Shown: positions 517-15,652 of the stretch, one piece after another
How positions within the stretch are numbered: the first letter of the stretch is position 1
Layout of the letters: each line of letters opens with the position of its first letter
Assembly (NCBI GenBank): GCA_028709305.1
Contig: JAQVXE010000008.1
Coordinates: 1 to 45,813 of the forward strand
DNA: 45,813 nucleotides
Reading direction: 5' to 3'
Source of the DNA: Bacillota bacterium
Lineage (GTDB): Bacteria > Bacillota > DTU025
Translations under genes and position numbers: made by a program
Notes under the pieces: generated by a model
The model's input: the letters and a program-made list of their open reading frames with translations, nothing else
What the model was told of the DNA's origin: nothing
Database searches by the model: none

Positions 517-1930
517 CTATCCCTTTACCACTCCGAGCGGCTTGAGCCTTGCAACCTTGCTTGAGATGCCTGCTCTATGACAGATGTCAACTATGTCGTT
601 TACATTCTTGTACGCCTCTGGCGCTTCTTCAGCCAGCGCACTTCTGCTCGCTGAGCGCGCGTAGATTCCCCGTTCAGCCAAATCGTCACGGACCTCATGC
701 GGCTTGCGGGCACGTATGGCAGCCTTTCTGCTCATCACTCGCCCCGCTCCATGGCAAGTGGAGCCGAACGATTTCTCCATCGCTTGCTCTGTTCCAACTA
801 GCACCCATGAGTTTCTTCCCATGTCACCGGGGACAATGACCGGCTGGCCCACTTTCGTGTAGGCTTTCGGGATATCGGAGTGCCCAGGCGGAAAGGCCCT
901 GGTAGCACCCTTTCGGTGGACACACACCCGACTTTTCTCGCCACCAACAATATGATCTTCAATCTTGGCTATGTTGTGGCACACATCGTATACCAAAGTC
1001 ATGCCCAATCTACTTGGCGTGGAACCAAGTTCGGCGGCAACCGCTTCCCTGGCCCAATGCATAATGCATTGCCTGTTGGCCCATGCGAAGTTCGCAGCCG
1101 CGGCCATGGCGGCGAAATACCGCTTCCCTTCTTCCGAATTCAGCGGCGCGCAGGCCAACTGCCTGTCAGGCACTACGATATCATGTTTCTTCAGCGCAGA
1201 CATCATCGTGGATATGTAATCGGTACATACCTGATGGCCCAGGCCTCGGGAGCCAGAGTGTATCATCATAACCACCTGTCCCTCAAATAGGCCGAAGCAC
1301 TCGGCTACTTCTGGATCGGCTATGTAGTCGACAACCTGCAGCTCCAAAAAGTGATTGCCCGAACCCATGGTGCCAAGCTGGGGCATGCCTCGCTCCACAG
1401 CCTTCCTGCTTACTGCGGAAGCGTCGGCGCCATCCATTCGGCCGCCTTCTTCAGTGTGCTCAAGGTCGGCCTCAAAGCCATAGCCGGCCTTCACCGCCCA
1501 CTCAGCACCTTCCTCAAGGACAGTGCGCACCTCGTCCGCGCTCAGCCTGATCTTGCCCGAAGTTCCCAAACCTGACGGCACATCTCGGTACAGCCTATCT
1601 ACAATGGCCTTCAGTTTTGGAGCAATATCCTCTTTCTCCAAGTCAGTCCTGACCAGCCTTACCCCGCAGTTGATGTCGAAACCTATTCCCCCGGGGGTAA
1701 TCACGCCAGACTCCAGGTCTGTTGCTCCAACGCCTCCAATTGGAAAGCCGTACCCTGAGTGAATATCCGGCATTGCCATAGCCGGCGAGCAAATCCCGGG
1801 AAGGAACGCGGAGTTAGCCAGTTGTTCGAGGGCTTCACCTTCGCATGCACTGGCAAGGCCTTCCTCGTCGGTAATGACCACTGCATCAACGAGCATGCCA
1901 GGCTTGTATGACTGTGGAATCCTCCACATG
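517..1930 (-). CDS. rtcB: RNA-splicing ligase RtcB (ORF extends to 2019; preferred start at 1930)
   Basis: MWRIPQSYKPGMLVDAVV...PDIHSGYGFPIGGVGA...GGIGFDINCGVRL...GSGNHFLE are RtcB signatures. AGAGGAG RBS just upstream of ATG at 1930. Confidence 0.95.
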
Positions 1931-2036
1931 CACTCCTCTATCCTCTCCAACAGCCCTGCCCATTCTCTCGACACGGCGTTCACCTCCTCAAAGTATTGCA
2001 GCAGTGTCGGTACCCACACTCAATTGATTTCCGTAG

Positions 2037-2663
2037 CTAAGCATCGAGCACAAACTGGGCGCCCCAGCGCCCGTCCTCTATCCGGCCCACTTCGAGCATG
2101 TGATAGGAAACCCCCTTCGGGACCAGCCCAAGAATTCGGTCCTCAGCCCGCTGAGGTTCCAGGGCTGAAGCGGGCAATGTCAAGCCACGGACGTGCACAT
2201 CAAGGCGGATGTCGCTATCGGCCTCTCTTGAACTTCCCACCACTTCCCACTCTCTGCCTCCGGATGACGGCTCCCTGGCAAATTCCACATCAAAGCTGTA
2301 CCCCAGGAAACCTTCTGAATCGAAAAGGCAGATAAGCTCGCTCAAAAAGTTCGCCAACAGGAGATCGATATCTACCGAGCTCACAGTGAATGACCTCTCT
2401 GTCAGGGAAGCGCCTGGGGCTACCTTGATTATGCTCGGGGACGAAGCCTCGTTACATAGACAAATGGGGCTGTCACCGTCTATGGGATCGTGCCTTTCAG
2501 ACGGTCCAGATGTTCTAGCACCTTCGCCCATGGCAGGCAGTATCAGATTGGAAAGTGCAAGCCCGCACCCGGCGAAAAGGAGTTCGCGCGTGCCTGCATA
2601 AACTCGATAGGCGGCATCACCCGCCTCGTCGAACGACTCGACAAGAATACGATCTTTCGCCAT
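2037..2663 (-). CDS. archease-like protein (RtcB activator) with an internal insertion
   Basis: D-x-x-Y-x-V-x-A-G N-terminus, 'DIDLLLANFLSELICLFDSEGF' core, C-terminal 'KGVSYHMLEV...WGAQFVLDA'; directly upstream of rtcB. Confidence 0.82.
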   Translation of the reverse strand: MAKDRILVESFDEAGDAAYRVYAGTRELLFAGCGLALSNLILPAMGEGARTSGPSERHDPIDGDSPICLCNEASSPSIIKVAPGASLTERSFTVSSVDIDLLLANFLSELICLFDSEGFLGYSFDVEFAREPSSGGREWEVVGSSREADSDIRLDVHVRGLTLPASALEPQRAEDRILGLVPKGVSYHMLEVGRIEDGRWGAQFVLDA

Positions 2664-7546: not shown

Positions 7547-7843
7547 CTATTCGTCGCCCCCAGAGTCAAATGTGCCGCCGATTCTCTTACGCAAAGTGCC
7601 TACAGACACAGGGCATAAGTAGACTTCATCGGCAGTTACCACCACTGCCTTAGGTTCACCTCCGGAGATATCAACGACCTTTCCTTCCCTTTCGTTGCTT
7701 TCCATGAAACTTTTCGTCTCTCGTGACCTTTCGGCACAATCTATGTCCAAGATAGCCACTACTCTGGAGCCATCCACCAAGACGTCGGCCCCGATGTACA
7801 TGTACATGCTATGCGATCCGAGCCTCTCGCCATGAAAGAACAT
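7547..7843 (-). CDS. RemB/YaaB-like DUF370 extracellular matrix regulatory protein
   Basis: 'MYIGADVLVDGSRVVAILDID...KSFMESNEREGKVVDIS...PKAVVVTADEVYLCPVSVGTLRKR' matches the DUF370 layout; recF-gyrB locus; start ATG overlaps the upstream stop (TGATG). Confidence 0.85.
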   Translation of the reverse strand: MFFHGERLGSHSMYMYIGADVLVDGSRVVAILDIDCAERSRETKSFMESNEREGKVVDISGGEPKAVVVTADEVYLCPVSVGTLRKRIGGTFDSGGDE

Positions 7844-8730
7844 CAAAGCCCCTCCCGAACACGACACAGACAGCTGGCGTATTCACTTCCCAAAGCGTGT
7901 TCTACCAGTTCTGCATTGATTCTCTCGGGGGGCTCCCCCGTAACAAGCATTGCGAGGGACTCCACGAGGACTTTTATTCTAATGCTGTTCTTGTCGCCTG
8001 GCTCATGCTCAGCCCCAGGCTCCGATGGAGCGTGCACGCCCAGCCGCTCCAGGGCAACCCGAGATGAGATCTCGCTCCTGAGGTCGCATGCGGCTGCGTC
8101 TCTAGCACGCAACAAGTCGTCGCTTGAAGCGCCCGAAACCATCGCTCTTACGTGCGAATCGTTTAGCCAGGGCTCCTTCTTCAGTATTTCCGCTGCCGCA
8201 AGGGCCTTGGGAGACAGGTTCTTCCGTATCCATGCCCGCCACTTGGCATCAGCGACCATCCAATCGCAGAACTTGTCCCTTACGTCAGGATCACTGATCA
8301 ATCTCGCAGCATCTCCAGCGGCGACAAGGTCCTCTTCGTCTGGGGCAATGCAAGTCCAGTCAGGCACGCCCTCTTCCTGAGACGATGGAATATGCAATTC
8401 CATGCTCGCCTCAGAATCTGACCCCCAAATGAGGGGCGCGCGGACCTGTCCGCTGCGAAACCTTATGTCTCTGATAGCGTCCTTTCCAGCAGAACCGTTA
8501 ATGCGCCGCACAAGCCCTCTTTTCATCATGGAAAGCTGTTGGGCCCACACGGGTTTTTCAACTGTAACGTAAAGTGTCTTTCCCCTGATGAAAGTGGCTC
8601 TCGAGGCAACCGCCAATGACGGAGCTATCTCATTATTCCACACCAGCATGGCCGATGCCGCCCTTATCCGGGCCGTATATCCCATCTTGTCCATGCTCTT
8701 CTCCAGAACATCTTTGAGGGGCAACATCAT
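7843..8730 (-). CDS. DUF721 / DciA-like protein with long C-terminal extension
   Basis: N-terminus 'LKDVLEKSMDKMGYTARIRAASAMLVWNNEIAPSLAVASRATFIRGKTLYVTVEKPVWAQQLSMMKRGLVRRIN' is typical DUF721; about 190 further residues. Confidence 0.8.
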   Translation of the reverse strand: MMLPLKDVLEKSMDKMGYTARIRAASAMLVWNNEIAPSLAVASRATFIRGKTLYVTVEKPVWAQQLSMMKRGLVRRINGSAGKDAIRDIRFRSGQVRAPLIWGSDSEASMELHIPSSQEEGVPDWTCIAPDEEDLVAAGDAARLISDPDVRDKFCDWMVADAKWRAWIRKNLSPKALAAAEILKKEPWLNDSHVRAMVSGASSDDLLRARDAAACDLRSEISSRVALERLGVHAPSEPGAEHEPGDKNSIRIKVLVESLAMLVTGEPPERINAELVEHALGSEYASCLCRVREGL

Positions 8731-10231: not shown

Positions 10232-11368
10232 TCACATGGGCGCCGTCACAGGCATCAGAAGATACGTATAGGACGGATCTGTCTCGTCCGTAACTTCTAT
10301 CGGATGCTTGAAGCTGGTGTAACCCAGGCACACCTCTTCTCCATCCAAAACTCTGAGCACGTCTCTGAGGTATCTTGCGCGCATGGCCACGGTGACTTCT
10401 GCATGGCCGATCATCGAGACCGGTATGTCCTCCCTGCCCTCGCCCACTTCGGGTGTGGTGGCAGCGATAGTCAGAAAACCGGAAGCCATTCCCTCGTCGC
10501 CGGTATAGGACATTCTTATTGCGCTCAATTCATCCTTGCACATCAAAGAAACCCTGTCTACGCAATCCAGAAGCTGCAGACGGTCGCAGACGATCCTGGC
10601 CGGAATGTTTTGGGGGAAGACCTGTTTGTAGTTGGGGAATTGCCCTTCGAGAAGGCGCGTAACGTATGTAGTGGTTCCTATGCGGAACATTGCATGATTC
10701 TCTGCAACGGCTACCGAAACTTCTCGTTCCCCAGCCTCGTTGAGGTTTCTCTCCACCTCGAGAAGGGCCTTTGCAGGAATGATAATGTCTATCGGCTCGT
10801 CCATATTGAAGATGGCCGATGACTTTCGGTAGGCCAACCTGAACGAGTCGGTAGCTACCATGGTCAGAGAGTCTTTCTCAAAGAGCGTGTATATGCCCTT
10901 GAAAAACGCCCTTGCATCATCGACGGCCGCCGCTGGCCCCGTCCTTCGTATCATAGTTTTGAGCTCGCCTTCTGCAATGGACCAACTGCTCGCCTCCGGA
11001 ATCTCGGGCAACGCGGGAAACTCATTCGCTGGCAAGGTCTTTACAACAAAATCTGCTCTGCCTGCCGAAATGGTAACTGATTGAGTCTCTTCCCGAAACT
11101 CAAGAACCACTTCTGCCTGTGGAAGCTTTCTGGATATGTCTGAAAAATACTTTGCAGGGATAACCGTGGATCCTTCTGCTCCTATTGTGACGGGTATGAA
11201 CGTTTCGATGCCCAGTTCGTCAAGGTCGTATGCTACCATCCTTAACCCTTGGGGGCAAGTTTCTACCAGCACTCCTGAGAGAGCAGGTATGGTAGGCTTT
11301 GCAGACACTGCCTTGTACACTGTCTGAACTCCGCTAACCAGAGCTGCCTTGGAGCATGATACCTTCAC
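10232..11368 (-). CDS. dnaN: DNA polymerase III sliding clamp (preferred GTG start at 11368; ORF to 11443)
   Basis: Beta clamp sequence ending 'YTYLLMPVTAPM'; GGGAGG RBS upstream of GTG encoding (M)KVSCSKAALVSGVQTV. Confidence 0.96.
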   Translation of the reverse strand: MKVSCSKAALVSGVQTVYKAVSAKPTIPALSGVLVETCPQGLRMVAYDLDELGIETFIPVTIGAEGSTVIPAKYFSDISRKLPQAEVVLEFREETQSVTISAGRADFVVKTLPANEFPALPEIPEASSWSIAEGELKTMIRRTGPAAAVDDARAFFKGIYTLFEKDSLTMVATDSFRLAYRKSSAIFNMDEPIDIIIPAKALLEVERNLNEAGEREVSVAVAENHAMFRIGTTTYVTRLLEGQFPNYKQVFPQNIPARIVCDRLQLLDCVDRVSLMCKDELSAIRMSYTGDEGMASGFLTIAATTPEVGEGREDIPVSMIGHAEVTVAMRARYLRDVLRVLDGEEVCLGYTSFKHPIEVTDETDPSYTYLLMPVTAPM

Positions 11369-11449
11369 CTTGCTATACCTCCCGGCTGACCTGATTTCCA
11401 GGCGCATGCATATATAGGTACTACTATGAGTACATATGTACATTTACCG

Positions 11450-11485
11450 TAGTAGTAGTACTAGGGCCTGTGGATATCTGGATAA
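11450..11485 (-). promoter_or_regulatory. DnaA-trio plus tandem DnaA boxes (candidate oriC unwinding element)
   Basis: + strand TAG TAG TAG TAC TAG (11450-11464), GGCC (11465-11468), TGTGGATAT (11469-11477), TCTGGATAA (11477-11485); AT-rich sequence next to the trio side. Confidence 0.7.
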
Positions 11486-11581
11486 GTATCGAAATTCCCG
11501 GATTGGGCTGCGCGGCTGCTTACTCCAACACTGTAGACAGGTTGTTGATTTCTTGTTGGGGAAAGGGATAGTTATCAACTC

Positions 11582-11590
11582 TTATCCACA
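11582..11590 (+). promoter_or_regulatory. DnaA box TTATCCACA (dnaA-dnaN intergenic part of oriC)
   Basis: Perfect consensus 9-mer. Confidence 0.85.
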
Positions 11591-11656: not shown

Positions 11657-13147
11657 CTAGCTGCTCTTCAATCTGGCAACTATCTCTTTCATGTTGGCGC
11701 TGAGGGTTGTATCTGTTTTCAGCTCTTTCTCAATCTTGTCGTAGGCGTGCATGACAGTAGTATGGTCCCTTCCGCCAAACTCCTCGCCTATTTTCGGGAG
11801 CGACAGCTCAGTCAGTTCCCGGCAAAGATACATGGCGATCTGGCGTGGGAAGGCTACGGTGCGCACCCTTGTCCTCGATACCATCTCGGAGACTTCTAGG
11901 TGGTAGTAGTCTGCTACGGTTCGCTGTATCATCTCCACAGAGATCTGCTTTGGCCGAGAAGAGGGGATCATGTCCTGGATCACTTCTGCCGCAAGCTGTG
12001 TATTTATCTGTCTATTGGTAAGGGCTGCACATGCGGTTACCCTGATGAGCGCACCTTCTAATTCCCGAATGTTGGAGTGTATCTGGCCGGCTATGTATAC
12101 CAGCACTTCGTTGGGAACATCAAGTTCTTCCGAAACGGCCTTCTTCTTCAGTATTGCGATCCTTGTTTCAAGATCGGGTGTTCCAATATCGGTAATTAAC
12201 CCCCACTCGAATCGCGAACGCAGCCTCGCCTCGAGCGTAGCTATTTCTTTCGGAGGCCGGTCAGACGAGAGAACTATCTGCTTTCCCGACTCGTAAAGAG
12301 TGTTGAAAGTGTGGAAGAACTCTTCCTGCGTGCGTTCCTTGCCTGCAAGGAACTGAATGTCATCTATCATCAGAACATCAACACTGCGGTATTTGTCGCG
12401 AAACTGAATAGTCGTTTCGAAACGGATCGAGTTTATCAGCTCATTTGTGAACTGCTCACATGGAACGTACACTACTTTTGCGAAAGGGTTAAGTTCCAGC
12501 ACGTGGTGGCCAATGGCCTGCATCAAGTGGGTCTTTCCAAGTCCCACCCCGCCATATATGAAAAACGGGTTGTAGGCTTTTCCCGGCGCTTCGGAAACGG
12601 CGAGCGCAGCTGCGTGGGCAAACCTGTTGGAGTTGCCCACGACGAAAGACTCAAACGTGTACTTGGGATTGAGCGCAGGCGGAGAGAAATCGTCGGTCAC
12701 CTGAGATTCGCTGGATGTTGGAGTGTAGACTCCCGCAGTTGCCGCAGCCTCGACTGCCCCGATGCCCCTTGATGAACCGGGATCGGATGTGCGCTGGAAA
12801 CCCATCTGACGATGGGCGGATTCGACATGCGACACCTGGCTTCGAGATAGCTTTATCCCTTGCACGCCGCCGTCTGCGTTTTCTTCAGTTGTGGAGCCTT
12901 CTTTTGCAACAAACCTGACTGTCATGTCGTGGCCCACCATGGATGATATGGTTTCTGACAACATTGCAGCATACCGAGTTTCAAGCCAATCGCGGGCAAA
13001 CTCATGTGGAACCGGCACTTCAATGGCATCGTCAGCGACGACCATAGGAGTGCTGGTTTTGAGCCATGCATCAAAGCTAGGCCTTGAAAGCTCATCTTCA
13101 AGGACTCTTAGAACGTCCATCCAAATTGCACTTATCTCCTGGGACAC
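11657..13147 (-). CDS. dnaA: chromosomal replication initiator DnaA (preferred GTG start at 13147; ORF to 13174)
   Basis: '[25 protein letters not shown]', Walker A '[16 protein letters not shown]', '[25 protein letters not shown]', C-terminal '[16 protein letters not shown]'; GGGGTGG RBS before GTG. Confidence 0.98.
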
Positions 13148-13170: not shown

Positions 13171-14448
13171 TCACCTGAAGACGTAGCTGAGGAAATCAAT
13201 ACCCCGCCTCGTAAGCTTTCGCTTGCCTCCTTCAAGGCTGACTACGAGTCCCAATTCCTCTAGAGTCACGAGATCGCGGTAGGCGGTACTAAGACTTATG
13301 TCAAGCTCTTTTGTGACAATAGAAGGCCCTATCTCCCCCATCTCTGCGATAAGCATGAAGACTTTCTTCTGGCGAGACGAGAGCAAATCTCCAAGAGCTT
13401 CATCTGACATGTCAGAGGGTTGAGATGTGGATGGGGGTTCCTCATCTTGCTTTCTCTTCGACTGCTCTGCCGCTGAATCCTGCTTATCTGCTGATATAGA
13501 CTCTTCATCTTCATGAGCTATGTTTTCCATATTGCGAGAGTGAGATTCCGTTTGAGCGCTGGATGATGCCCGGCCTCGTGCTTCACCATGATCGTCGTCT
13601 TCCGCATGCTTAGCGGAGAGCCTGCCGGAATCCGTGGTGCCCGGATGCATCCCTGCGTGACCATGGAAAGCCCCGCCCGGCGCGTAGGTGCCGTGAGGAA
13701 TTTGTGGACTCGGTTGATAGATACCAAGTGCATCCTGCCCTGAGCTCCAAATCTCCGCTGTATCCTGCTGAGGCGTGACTTGCGGCGGATACTGATAGGC
13801 TCCGCCCCATCCGGGCTGTGGCTTATTGCCAGCGTCTCGAGCCGGATGGGATCCGGCGGGGTCCCTGTGGCCGTGGCCCGGCCCCGCAGAGGGTGCCGCC
13901 GAACACAGGGTCACCACTAGCCCTGAGCCCAGGTTGTCCTCCATAGTGAGAAAGCCGCCCAATGACTCCAAAGATTCAATCATTATGGGGAACCCTGATC
14001 CCACTCCCCTTATTAGTTCTCTCTCAGAGGCTGTTGTTGATGTGAAACCAGGCATCGTAGCCTGGCTTTTTCGCTTTATGCCCGGCCCGTGATCTGATAT
14101 TCGCACAACGTTGCCATCTGGCATTATTGTGACTATCGCATCTTCAAAGCCGGCATGGATCAGGTTCTCCACAGCTTCCCTCAAAACTACAAAGGGCATG
14201 GAGCCCCCTCTTTCCTTGCAGAAAGAGTAGATTCTGGAGGCTGCTTCGTCTACAAAGGACGTAAAATCATCTGACGAGAGATCAACAGTGCGAGGCAAGA
14301 CTGACATTGAGTCGTATACCGCTATGCGCAATGTATACACCGGACTCGAATCGGACTGCGTTGCCGACGCTCCGGCGGTCGAGTCGTCTGTCTGGTGTTC
14401 CTCTTTATTCATCTTGCCAAAAAGGAATCTGAATAAAGCCACTCGCAT
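13171..14448 (-). CDS. GHKL (HATPase_c) domain + disordered linker + C-terminal winged-helix protein, immediately upstream of dnaA
   Basis: N-box 'LREAVENLIHAGF', G1 'ISDHGPGI', G2-like 'GVGSGFPIMIESLESLGGFLTMEDNLGSGLVVTL'; roughly 170-aa G/P/Q/S-rich linker; C-term 'SRQKKVFMLIAEMGEIGPSIVTKELDISLSTAYRDLVTLEELGLVVSLEGGKRKLTRRG' reads as wHTH. Confidence 0.8.
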   Translation of the reverse strand: MRVALFRFLFGKMNKEEHQTDDSTAGASATQSDSSPVYTLRIAVYDSMSVLPRTVDLSSDDFTSFVDEAASRIYSFCKERGGSMPFVVLREAVENLIHAGFEDAIVTIMPDGNVVRISDHGPGIKRKSQATMPGFTSTTASERELIRGVGSGFPIMIESLESLGGFLTMEDNLGSGLVVTLCSAAPSAGPGHGHRDPAGSHPARDAGNKPQPGWGGAYQYPPQVTPQQDTAEIWSSGQDALGIYQPSPQIPHGTYAPGGAFHGHAGMHPGTTDSGRLSAKHAEDDDHGEARGRASSSAQTESHSRNMENIAHEDEESISADKQDSAAEQSKRKQDEEPPSTSQPSDMSDEALGDLLSSRQKKVFMLIAEMGEIGPSIVTKELDISLSTAYRDLVTLEELGLVVSLEGGKRKLTRRGIDFLSYVFR

Positions 14449-14483: not shown

Positions 14484-14903
14484 TCATCCACAGGTTATCA
14501 ACATGAAATTGTGGATAACTCGAGCGCCAGCTAGAAGCGTTCGCAATTGCTCGACAATTAATGTCTATTGCTCGAATGCTGCTAGCCATGGCGGAAACAT
14601 TCTCGAAATAACTCGTTTTCGCCTAGAAGTTATCCACAGTGTTTTCCACAGCTGTTGAAAAGTCATAAGAAAGCATGGACTGCACATTGTTTATAACATA
14701 TCATCCACAAGTATTCCACAGACACCTGTGGATATCCTACCACCAGCAGATTGACGGGGAACATATGTTTTAAATGGCTTTTCGCCAGTCTGGCATATGT
14801 TTCATAATTGTCCACAGAGGATTTTAGAAAAGTTTTTGCCCAAATATCGGCGGGTGTAGGAAATCCACGAACTTCGCACAGGTTATCCACAGGGATATCC
14901 ACA
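14484..14903. promoter_or_regulatory. oriC DnaA-box cluster (rpmH side)
   Basis: TGTGGATAA 14510-14518; TTATCCACA 14630-14638 and 14883-14891; near matches TCATCCACA 14484-14492 and 14701-14709, TTTTCCACA 14642-14650, TATTCCACA 14712-14720, TGTGGATAT 14727-14735, TTGTCCACA 14808-14816, ATATCCACA 14895-14903. Confidence 0.9.
14546..14607. repeat. short direct repeats ATTGCTCGA (14546-14554, 14567-14575) and degenerate ATTCTCGAA (14599-14607)
   Basis: Two identical 9-mers 21 bp apart; related copy 32 bp further on. Confidence 0.5.
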
Positions 14904-15517: not shown

Positions 15518-15652
15518 ATGAAAAGGACATATCAGCCTAAAGTTAGGCGTCGACGAAGAGTTCATGGATTTAGAAGACGCATGAGGACGCCAGCCGGCCG
15601 CAACGTGATGCGTCGCCGCAGGGCAAAGGGCCGCAAGCGGCTTGCAGTCTAA
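15518..15652 (+). CDS. rpmH: 50S ribosomal protein L34 (44 aa, below the ORF-track cut-off)
   Basis: [53 protein letters not shown]. Confidence 0.97.

Follow-up and report, generated by a model that had tools for sequence, protein, structure and literature searches.

In members of several bacterial phyla, dnaA is directly preceded by a gene that combines a GHKL ATPase domain with a C-terminal winged helix, and on balance we favour the reading that the encoded proteins form a previously unreported family of regulators that bind DNA under ATP control and are tied to dnaA. The member considered here lies in a stretch of 45,813 nucleotides from a Bacillota bacterium (assembly GCA_028709305.1, contig JAQVXE010000008.1, positions 1–45,813), which is called the window below. 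An earlier sequence-only reading of the window had suggested that the protein controls dnaA transcription or origin firing. Such an effect is plausible and is predicted from genomic context, and from domain architecture and gene position we infer a role in the protein's own dnaA operon, at the adjacent origin, or both. An existing characterised family that could account for the protein was sought and none was found: no model or entry in Pfam, the NCBIfam equivalogs, PDB, PHROG or PADLOC names it, and the full texts of open-licence papers yielded no description of a dnaA-linked GHKL–winged-helix protein. Fusions of the two domains exist elsewhere (structure 3LMM, discussed below, being of that type); the surprising part here is the strict attachment to dnaA across phyla.

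The open reading frame of 425 aa (13171–14448, minus strand, ATG start) reads towards dnaA (11657–13147, minus strand; 572 bits to the DnaA model TIGR00362) and has that gene on one side and DnaA-box-like sites, clustered at 14484–14903, on the other, as had been noted from the letters. Its TGA stop shares the bases GTGA with the GTG of the longest dnaA reading frame, which extends to 13174. The preferred dnaA start is the GTG at 13147 (VSQEI...), 23 bp downstream of the stop, and is favoured because in a relative (L010) a TAA directly precedes the same codon; the overlap and the 23-bp spacing were both described correctly before. No sigma-70 consensus promoter was found ahead of the gene on the minus strand, which is uninformative. 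Downstream of dnaA come dnaN (10232–11443, minus strand; TIGR00663), the next gene of the block, and then recF, dciA, a remA-like gene, gyrB and gyrA. On the other side rpmH (15518–15652, plus strand) and rnpA are divergent and lie beyond the box cluster and origin region. The RemA-like regulator (PF04025) is encoded at 7547–7867 on the minus strand, between dciA and gyrB, and adjacent genes for an RtcB RNA ligase and an archease are found at 517–2663 (minus strand), downstream of gyrA.

We assign the N-terminal part of the protein to the GHKL ATPase superfamily (HATPase_c) on its motifs and its predicted Bergerat fold. Pfam HATPase_c matches residues 88–181 with an E value of 7.4e-8 (33.3 bits against a cut-off of 26.4) and likewise matches 54 of 54 aligned relatives. 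An AlphaFold2 model built with 54 homologues predicts the ATPase fold with confidence over residues ~36–184 (13897–14343, minus strand; pLDDT mostly >84), in which the ATP-site motifs are E91 and N95 of the N-box, DHGPG at 119–123 (G1) and G148, G150 and G152 (G2). Residues 185–345 (13414–13896, minus strand) are a low-complexity linker that is predicted to be disordered, with most of its pLDDT <50, and whose length differs strongly between relatives. The C-terminal domain, at about residues 346–425 (13174–13413, minus strand), is modelled very confidently from about residue 349 to 425 (pLDDT mostly 94–98) with the topology H-H-H-strand-strand-H, that is, with the three helices and two-stranded wing by which we class it as a predicted winged-helix DNA-binding domain. 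Profile matches to it in the window protein (HTH_IclR, HTH_11, DeoR, TrmB) are individually weak and below cut-off, and winged-helix matches are widespread and stronger in relatives (IclR, TrmB, HVO_A0261, MarR). The same two domains appear in the model of a compact relative of 261 aa (L046; mean pLDDT 87.5). Ahead of the N-box helix both models have a strand-strand-helix arrangement and no helical hairpin; in the window protein the Pfam and NCBIfam profiles found no DHp/HisKA domain, and a profile search found neither a STAS nor a HATPase_c_4 (PF13749) domain. The two folds, the linker that joins them and the missing phosphoacceptor helix had all been proposed from the sequence, and profiles and structure predictions agree with the proposal.

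Conservation follows the same division. Among 142 distinct ATPase domains, N95, H98, D119, G121, G123, G134, G148, G152, G165 and G176 are present in all 142, G150 in 141 and E91 in 140. In the winged helix, R391, L396 and G408 are kept in 54 of 54 relatives, R410 in 52 and K409 in 50, and the HTH and wing residues R391, K409 and R410 persist across phyla. When estimated within the genus, dN/dS is low in the ATPase domain (0.065–0.075) and in the winged helix (0–0.04) and higher in the linker (0.37–0.40). The low values in both domains therefore indicate strong purifying selection on the ATPase and the winged helix while the linker drifts. Because profile, fold and selection evidence agree, we accept the GHKL–winged-helix architecture.

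Comparison with described proteins places the ATPase domain nearest to the CA domains of histidine kinases. These are the closest PDB profile matches of the window family (KinB, 3d36, sporulation kinase B, E 6e-8) and make up most of the Foldseek matches of the window protein in PDB; the G1 and G2 boxes are the same as in the CA domains of KinB 3d36, CpxA and HK853. Unlike histidine kinases, however, the window protein has no DHp helices and no phosphoacceptor histidine, it carries a C-terminal winged helix, and its family has a conserved glutamate in an N-box of the form ExxEN(L/I)xHA, MutL-like by eye. A sensor histidine kinase was ruled out by the lack of any HisKA-type match and of a helical hairpin before the N-box helix, and a MutL/GyrB-type GHL ATPase by the disordered linker and winged helix in place of a transducer domain and by MutL models that score far below cut-off. 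The sequence-only reading had likened the protein to RsbW and other anti-sigma ATPases, with which it shares a soluble GHKL domain without DHp and a catalytic-type N-box glutamate, but from which it differs in its C-terminal winged helix. We drop that label: the protein scores 20.5 bits with the SpoIIAB equivalog TIGR01925 (cut-off 135) and 14.9 bits with PF13581 (cut-off 27.4), both far too low for an anti-sigma kinase of the SpoIIAB/RsbW type, and its nearest PDB profiles are the histidine-kinase CA domains. No STAS antagonist or sigma factor occurs among the identified genes of the block rpmH/rnpA–gene–dnaA–dnaN–recF–gyrB, though one may be encoded elsewhere in the genome.

For the compact homologue L046 the best match by fold is 3LMM (DIP2311 of Corynebacterium diphtheriae), which we take to be of the COG2865 type, with AlbA_2, HATPase_c_4 and a winged HTH. 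The match (Foldseek E 5.6e-7, TMq 0.46) covers 282 alignment columns, more than for the listed kinases, which suggests that it spans both domains. Identity is only 16%, though, and the window protein has neither AlbA_2 nor HATPase_c_4 (PF13749). A COG2865-type regulator was ruled out because neither domain was matched in the window protein or its relatives; PF13749 is absent from the whole window genome, though it was found in 5 control genomes.

A different kind of likeness is offered by CapK and CapS, a system in which a GHKL protein controls the winged-helix repressor of an adjoining operon by phosphorylation and in response to single-stranded DNA (PMC13373217). There, too, a GHKL ATPase/kinase and a winged-helix repressor are encoded upstream of the operon that they control, but CapK (HTH-STAS-GHKL) and CapS (STAS-wHTH) are two proteins with STAS domains (PMC13373217), whereas the window's GHKL domain and winged helix form one protein, no STAS domain was detected, and the operon is that of dnaA. 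The lack of a STAS match and the domain order GHKL-linker-wHTH rule out membership in CapK. The pair is a precedent for GHKL control of a neighbouring operon, and we make no claim of homology.

The window genome holds one two-domain copy of the gene, the next match being an ORF of 187 aa (E 6e-4). An even sample of 399 genomes from Bacillota, the phylum of the window, contains 36 with a true homologue, and a sharp score gap there sets homologues off from SpoIIAB- or kinase-like matches; the gene is also present in 139 of 347 sampled Actinomycetota genomes and in 34 of the 35 sampled from the phylum of L079 (Sysuimicrobiota; CSP1-3 and ANGP1 members). In total, 196 two-domain ORFs were gathered, representing the 142 distinct ATPase domains, from Bacillota, Actinomycetota, Sysuimicrobiota (CSP1-3/ANGP1) and a UBP13-type lineage. 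The eighty named loci belong to uncultured Bacillota, Coriobacteriia, Aquicultor, Humimicrobium, Hydromicrobium, Oleimmundimicrobium, Geothermocultor, CSP1-3/ANGP1/'Armatimonadetes' and UBP13. The gene tree suggests that two contigs, titled Slackia heliotrinireducens (L047) and Candidatus Nitrosymbiomonas (L052), are mislabelled MAGs: it places L052 among the CSP1-3/Sysuimicrobiota sequences and L047 apart from the Coriobacteriia.

For 188 of the 196 ORFs the next gene downstream, on the same strand, is dnaA. The remaining 8 are no more than ~220 bp from an end of their contig or record, 6 of them in single-contig genomes whose record begins with dnaA, and no two-domain ORF was found away from dnaA among the 196 gathered. 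Because complete chromosomes often start at dnaA, which puts the gene last in the record, the linkage is easily overlooked; such records, written from dnaA with the gene last, include L188, L190-L193, L195 and L196 with L214-L220. Between the stop and the dnaA start the gap has a median of 11 bp and a maximum of 93 bp (n = 55 loci), which fits co-transcription. The order rpmH, gene, dnaA, dnaN, recF, gyrB is kept at many loci, and at 30 control dnaA loci from families without the gene neither domain was traced nearby. Homologues are therefore not scattered, and with a single copy, several phyla and so short a gap the coupling to dnaA is far stronger than could be seen from the window. The gene tree agrees with the DnaA tree (r 0.76, against a permuted maximum of 0.24), and the gene has therefore largely been inherited vertically together with dnaA. 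We dropped this correlation as a sign of interaction with DnaA, given that vertical inheritance predicts the same. A mobile or phage origin was rejected: there was no plasmid match, and the PHROG and PADLOC matches were weak, many of them to the HTH.

The DNA upstream of the gene resembles an origin of replication. The window contains 22 TTATCCACA-like sites (≤1 mismatch) where 7.7 are expected, a number that 0 of 100 shuffles reach. Ten of the 22 make up the oriC-like cluster at 14484–14903, and a second small group lies between dnaA and dnaN (11469–11590). Within the cluster is a 20-bp inverted repeat, TTTTCCACA-GC-TGTTGAAAA (14642–14661), which is a conserved oriC element and has no other copy in the window genome at ≤2 mismatches. 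In the form TTTTCCACA-NN-TGTGGAAAA it is found upstream of the gene at 76 of 137 distinct loci when ≤2 mismatches are allowed, whereas shuffles give none. In most of these loci its distance hardly varies, usually being ~290–330 bp before the ATPase domain, and within the family it is almost letter-perfect and followed by a DnaA box. In Bacillota the palindrome occurs in 16 of 23 carriers of the gene compared with 3 of 25 dnaA-upstream regions of non-carriers, one of these 3 copies coinciding with the start of dnaA. The figures for Actinomycetota are 12 of 36 carriers and 19 of 55 non-carriers, and ~12 of these 19 are close to dnaA. The palindrome could be considered as a candidate binding site of the winged helix, but we rejected it as the protein's own operator, given that it is as common in Actinomycetota without the gene. 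Since it occurs without the gene and its half-sites fit the relaxed DnaA-box consensus TTWTNCACA, we read it as an inverted DnaA-box pair, probably an ancient one of the origin that is common to several phyla. Other shared upstream motifs were discarded as candidate sites, the strongest words being DnaA-box variants. Two gene-free genomes, G098 (17 copies) and G022 (6), have near-perfect TTTTCCACnnnnGTGGAAAA palindromes scattered over the chromosome.

The gene and the Bacillus DnaA regulator YabA show a complementary pattern in Bacillota. In the sample of 399 genomes, YabA occurs in 0 of 36 carriers and 183 of 363 non-carriers; of the families, 13 have the gene, 64 have YabA and none has both (Fisher p 5.6e-4, phylogeny ignored). 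Proteins of the DnaD type (PF07261) were detected in 8 of the 36 carriers as against 256 of the 363 other genomes, and among DnaD-positive genomes YabA is present in 0 of 8 carriers against 159 of 256 others (p 5e-4, phylogeny ignored). The exclusion of YabA is suggestive only, because the tests ignore phylogeny: it is confounded by phylogeny, and DnaD is depleted in carriers too. Any likeness to YabA lies in the proposed role in initiation control and in this phyletic pattern; YabA is a separate family, with no match in any carrier genome or in the window protein. Neither YabA nor DnaD was detected in the window genome, which encodes DciA (PF05258; 7843–8730, minus strand, between recF and gyrB). 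DciA is the older helicase-loading factor, so that this member of the Bacillota, with no YabA or DnaD detected, has initiation machinery of an older kind.

The mechanism that we propose is built on these features. The C-terminal winged helix would bind DNA in the origin or dnaA-promoter region beside its own gene, and the N-terminal GHKL domain would bind and probably hydrolyse ATP. ATP at the GHKL domain may switch the protein between DNA-binding states, for example through its oligomeric state, and the long flexible tether may let the two domains act separately. Since the gene leads an operon in which dnaA comes next and, as a rule, dnaN after it, we would most expect feedback control of dnaA expression by the ATP state or by a bound partner, and this feedback would in turn control replication initiation.

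The protein might instead act directly on initiation, at oriC or on DnaA itself, as a functional counterpart of YabA, SirA or Hda whose ATP-dependent action opens DnaA assembly or blocks it. We regard this as rather unlikely. It is consistent with the position of the gene between the box cluster and dnaA, with the absence of YabA from all 36 Bacillota carriers and with the lack of detected YabA and DnaD in the window genome; moreover, mycobacteria have no identified homologues of known DnaA regulators (PMC5720831), which shows that such regulators differ between lineages. However, those Actinomycetota that lack the gene start replication with similar boxes and have this palindrome too. A reading that we find improbable has the GHKL domain working as a serine/threonine kinase in the manner of SpoIIAB, RsbW or CapK, phosphorylating DnaA or another partner while the winged helix tethers it to DNA. 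The conserved N-box residues (E91 in 140 and N95 in 142 of 142 domains), the weak SpoIIAB profile matches (among them that of the family profile to PDB 1l0o, E 0.004) and the CapK precedent (PMC13373217) speak for such a kinase, but neither a STAS domain in the protein nor a partner of STAS type in the conserved block turned up, and the scores with the SpoIIAB equivalog and PF13581 stay below their cut-offs as given above.

That the gene keeps its place beside dnaA can also stem from an ancient gene order and need not reflect function. On that view it might encode a transcription factor of the ordinary kind, acting on other genes and kept in place merely by a stable arrangement: the order rpmH-dnaA-dnaN-recF-gyrB is itself ancient, and the agreement between the gene and DnaA trees needs no functional coupling. 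Yet genes that are merely carried along should have moved in some lineages, and no displaced copy was found. Even where the dnaA region has been rearranged (L185, genome G577), with dnaN on the opposite strand and rpmH relocated, the gene still stands directly before dnaA. We therefore hold passive retention to be very unlikely, and return to an ATP-gated regulator of dnaA as the preferred reading.

How DnaA is controlled outside E. coli and B. subtilis is largely open, and the GHKL–winged-helix protein is a concrete candidate, in which E91, N95, the HTH and the wing are clear targets for mutation. We see an even chance that it is the cognate DnaA regulator, acting on the operon or on initiation, of Sysuimicrobiota, deep-branching Actinomycetota and several Bacillota lineages; if so, it would fill the role that YabA and SirA or Hda have in model bacteria. 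We know of no earlier DnaA regulator built on a GHKL ATPase. The family spans hundreds of little-studied bacteria in several phyla, for which it is a good candidate for the missing regulator of the start of replication.
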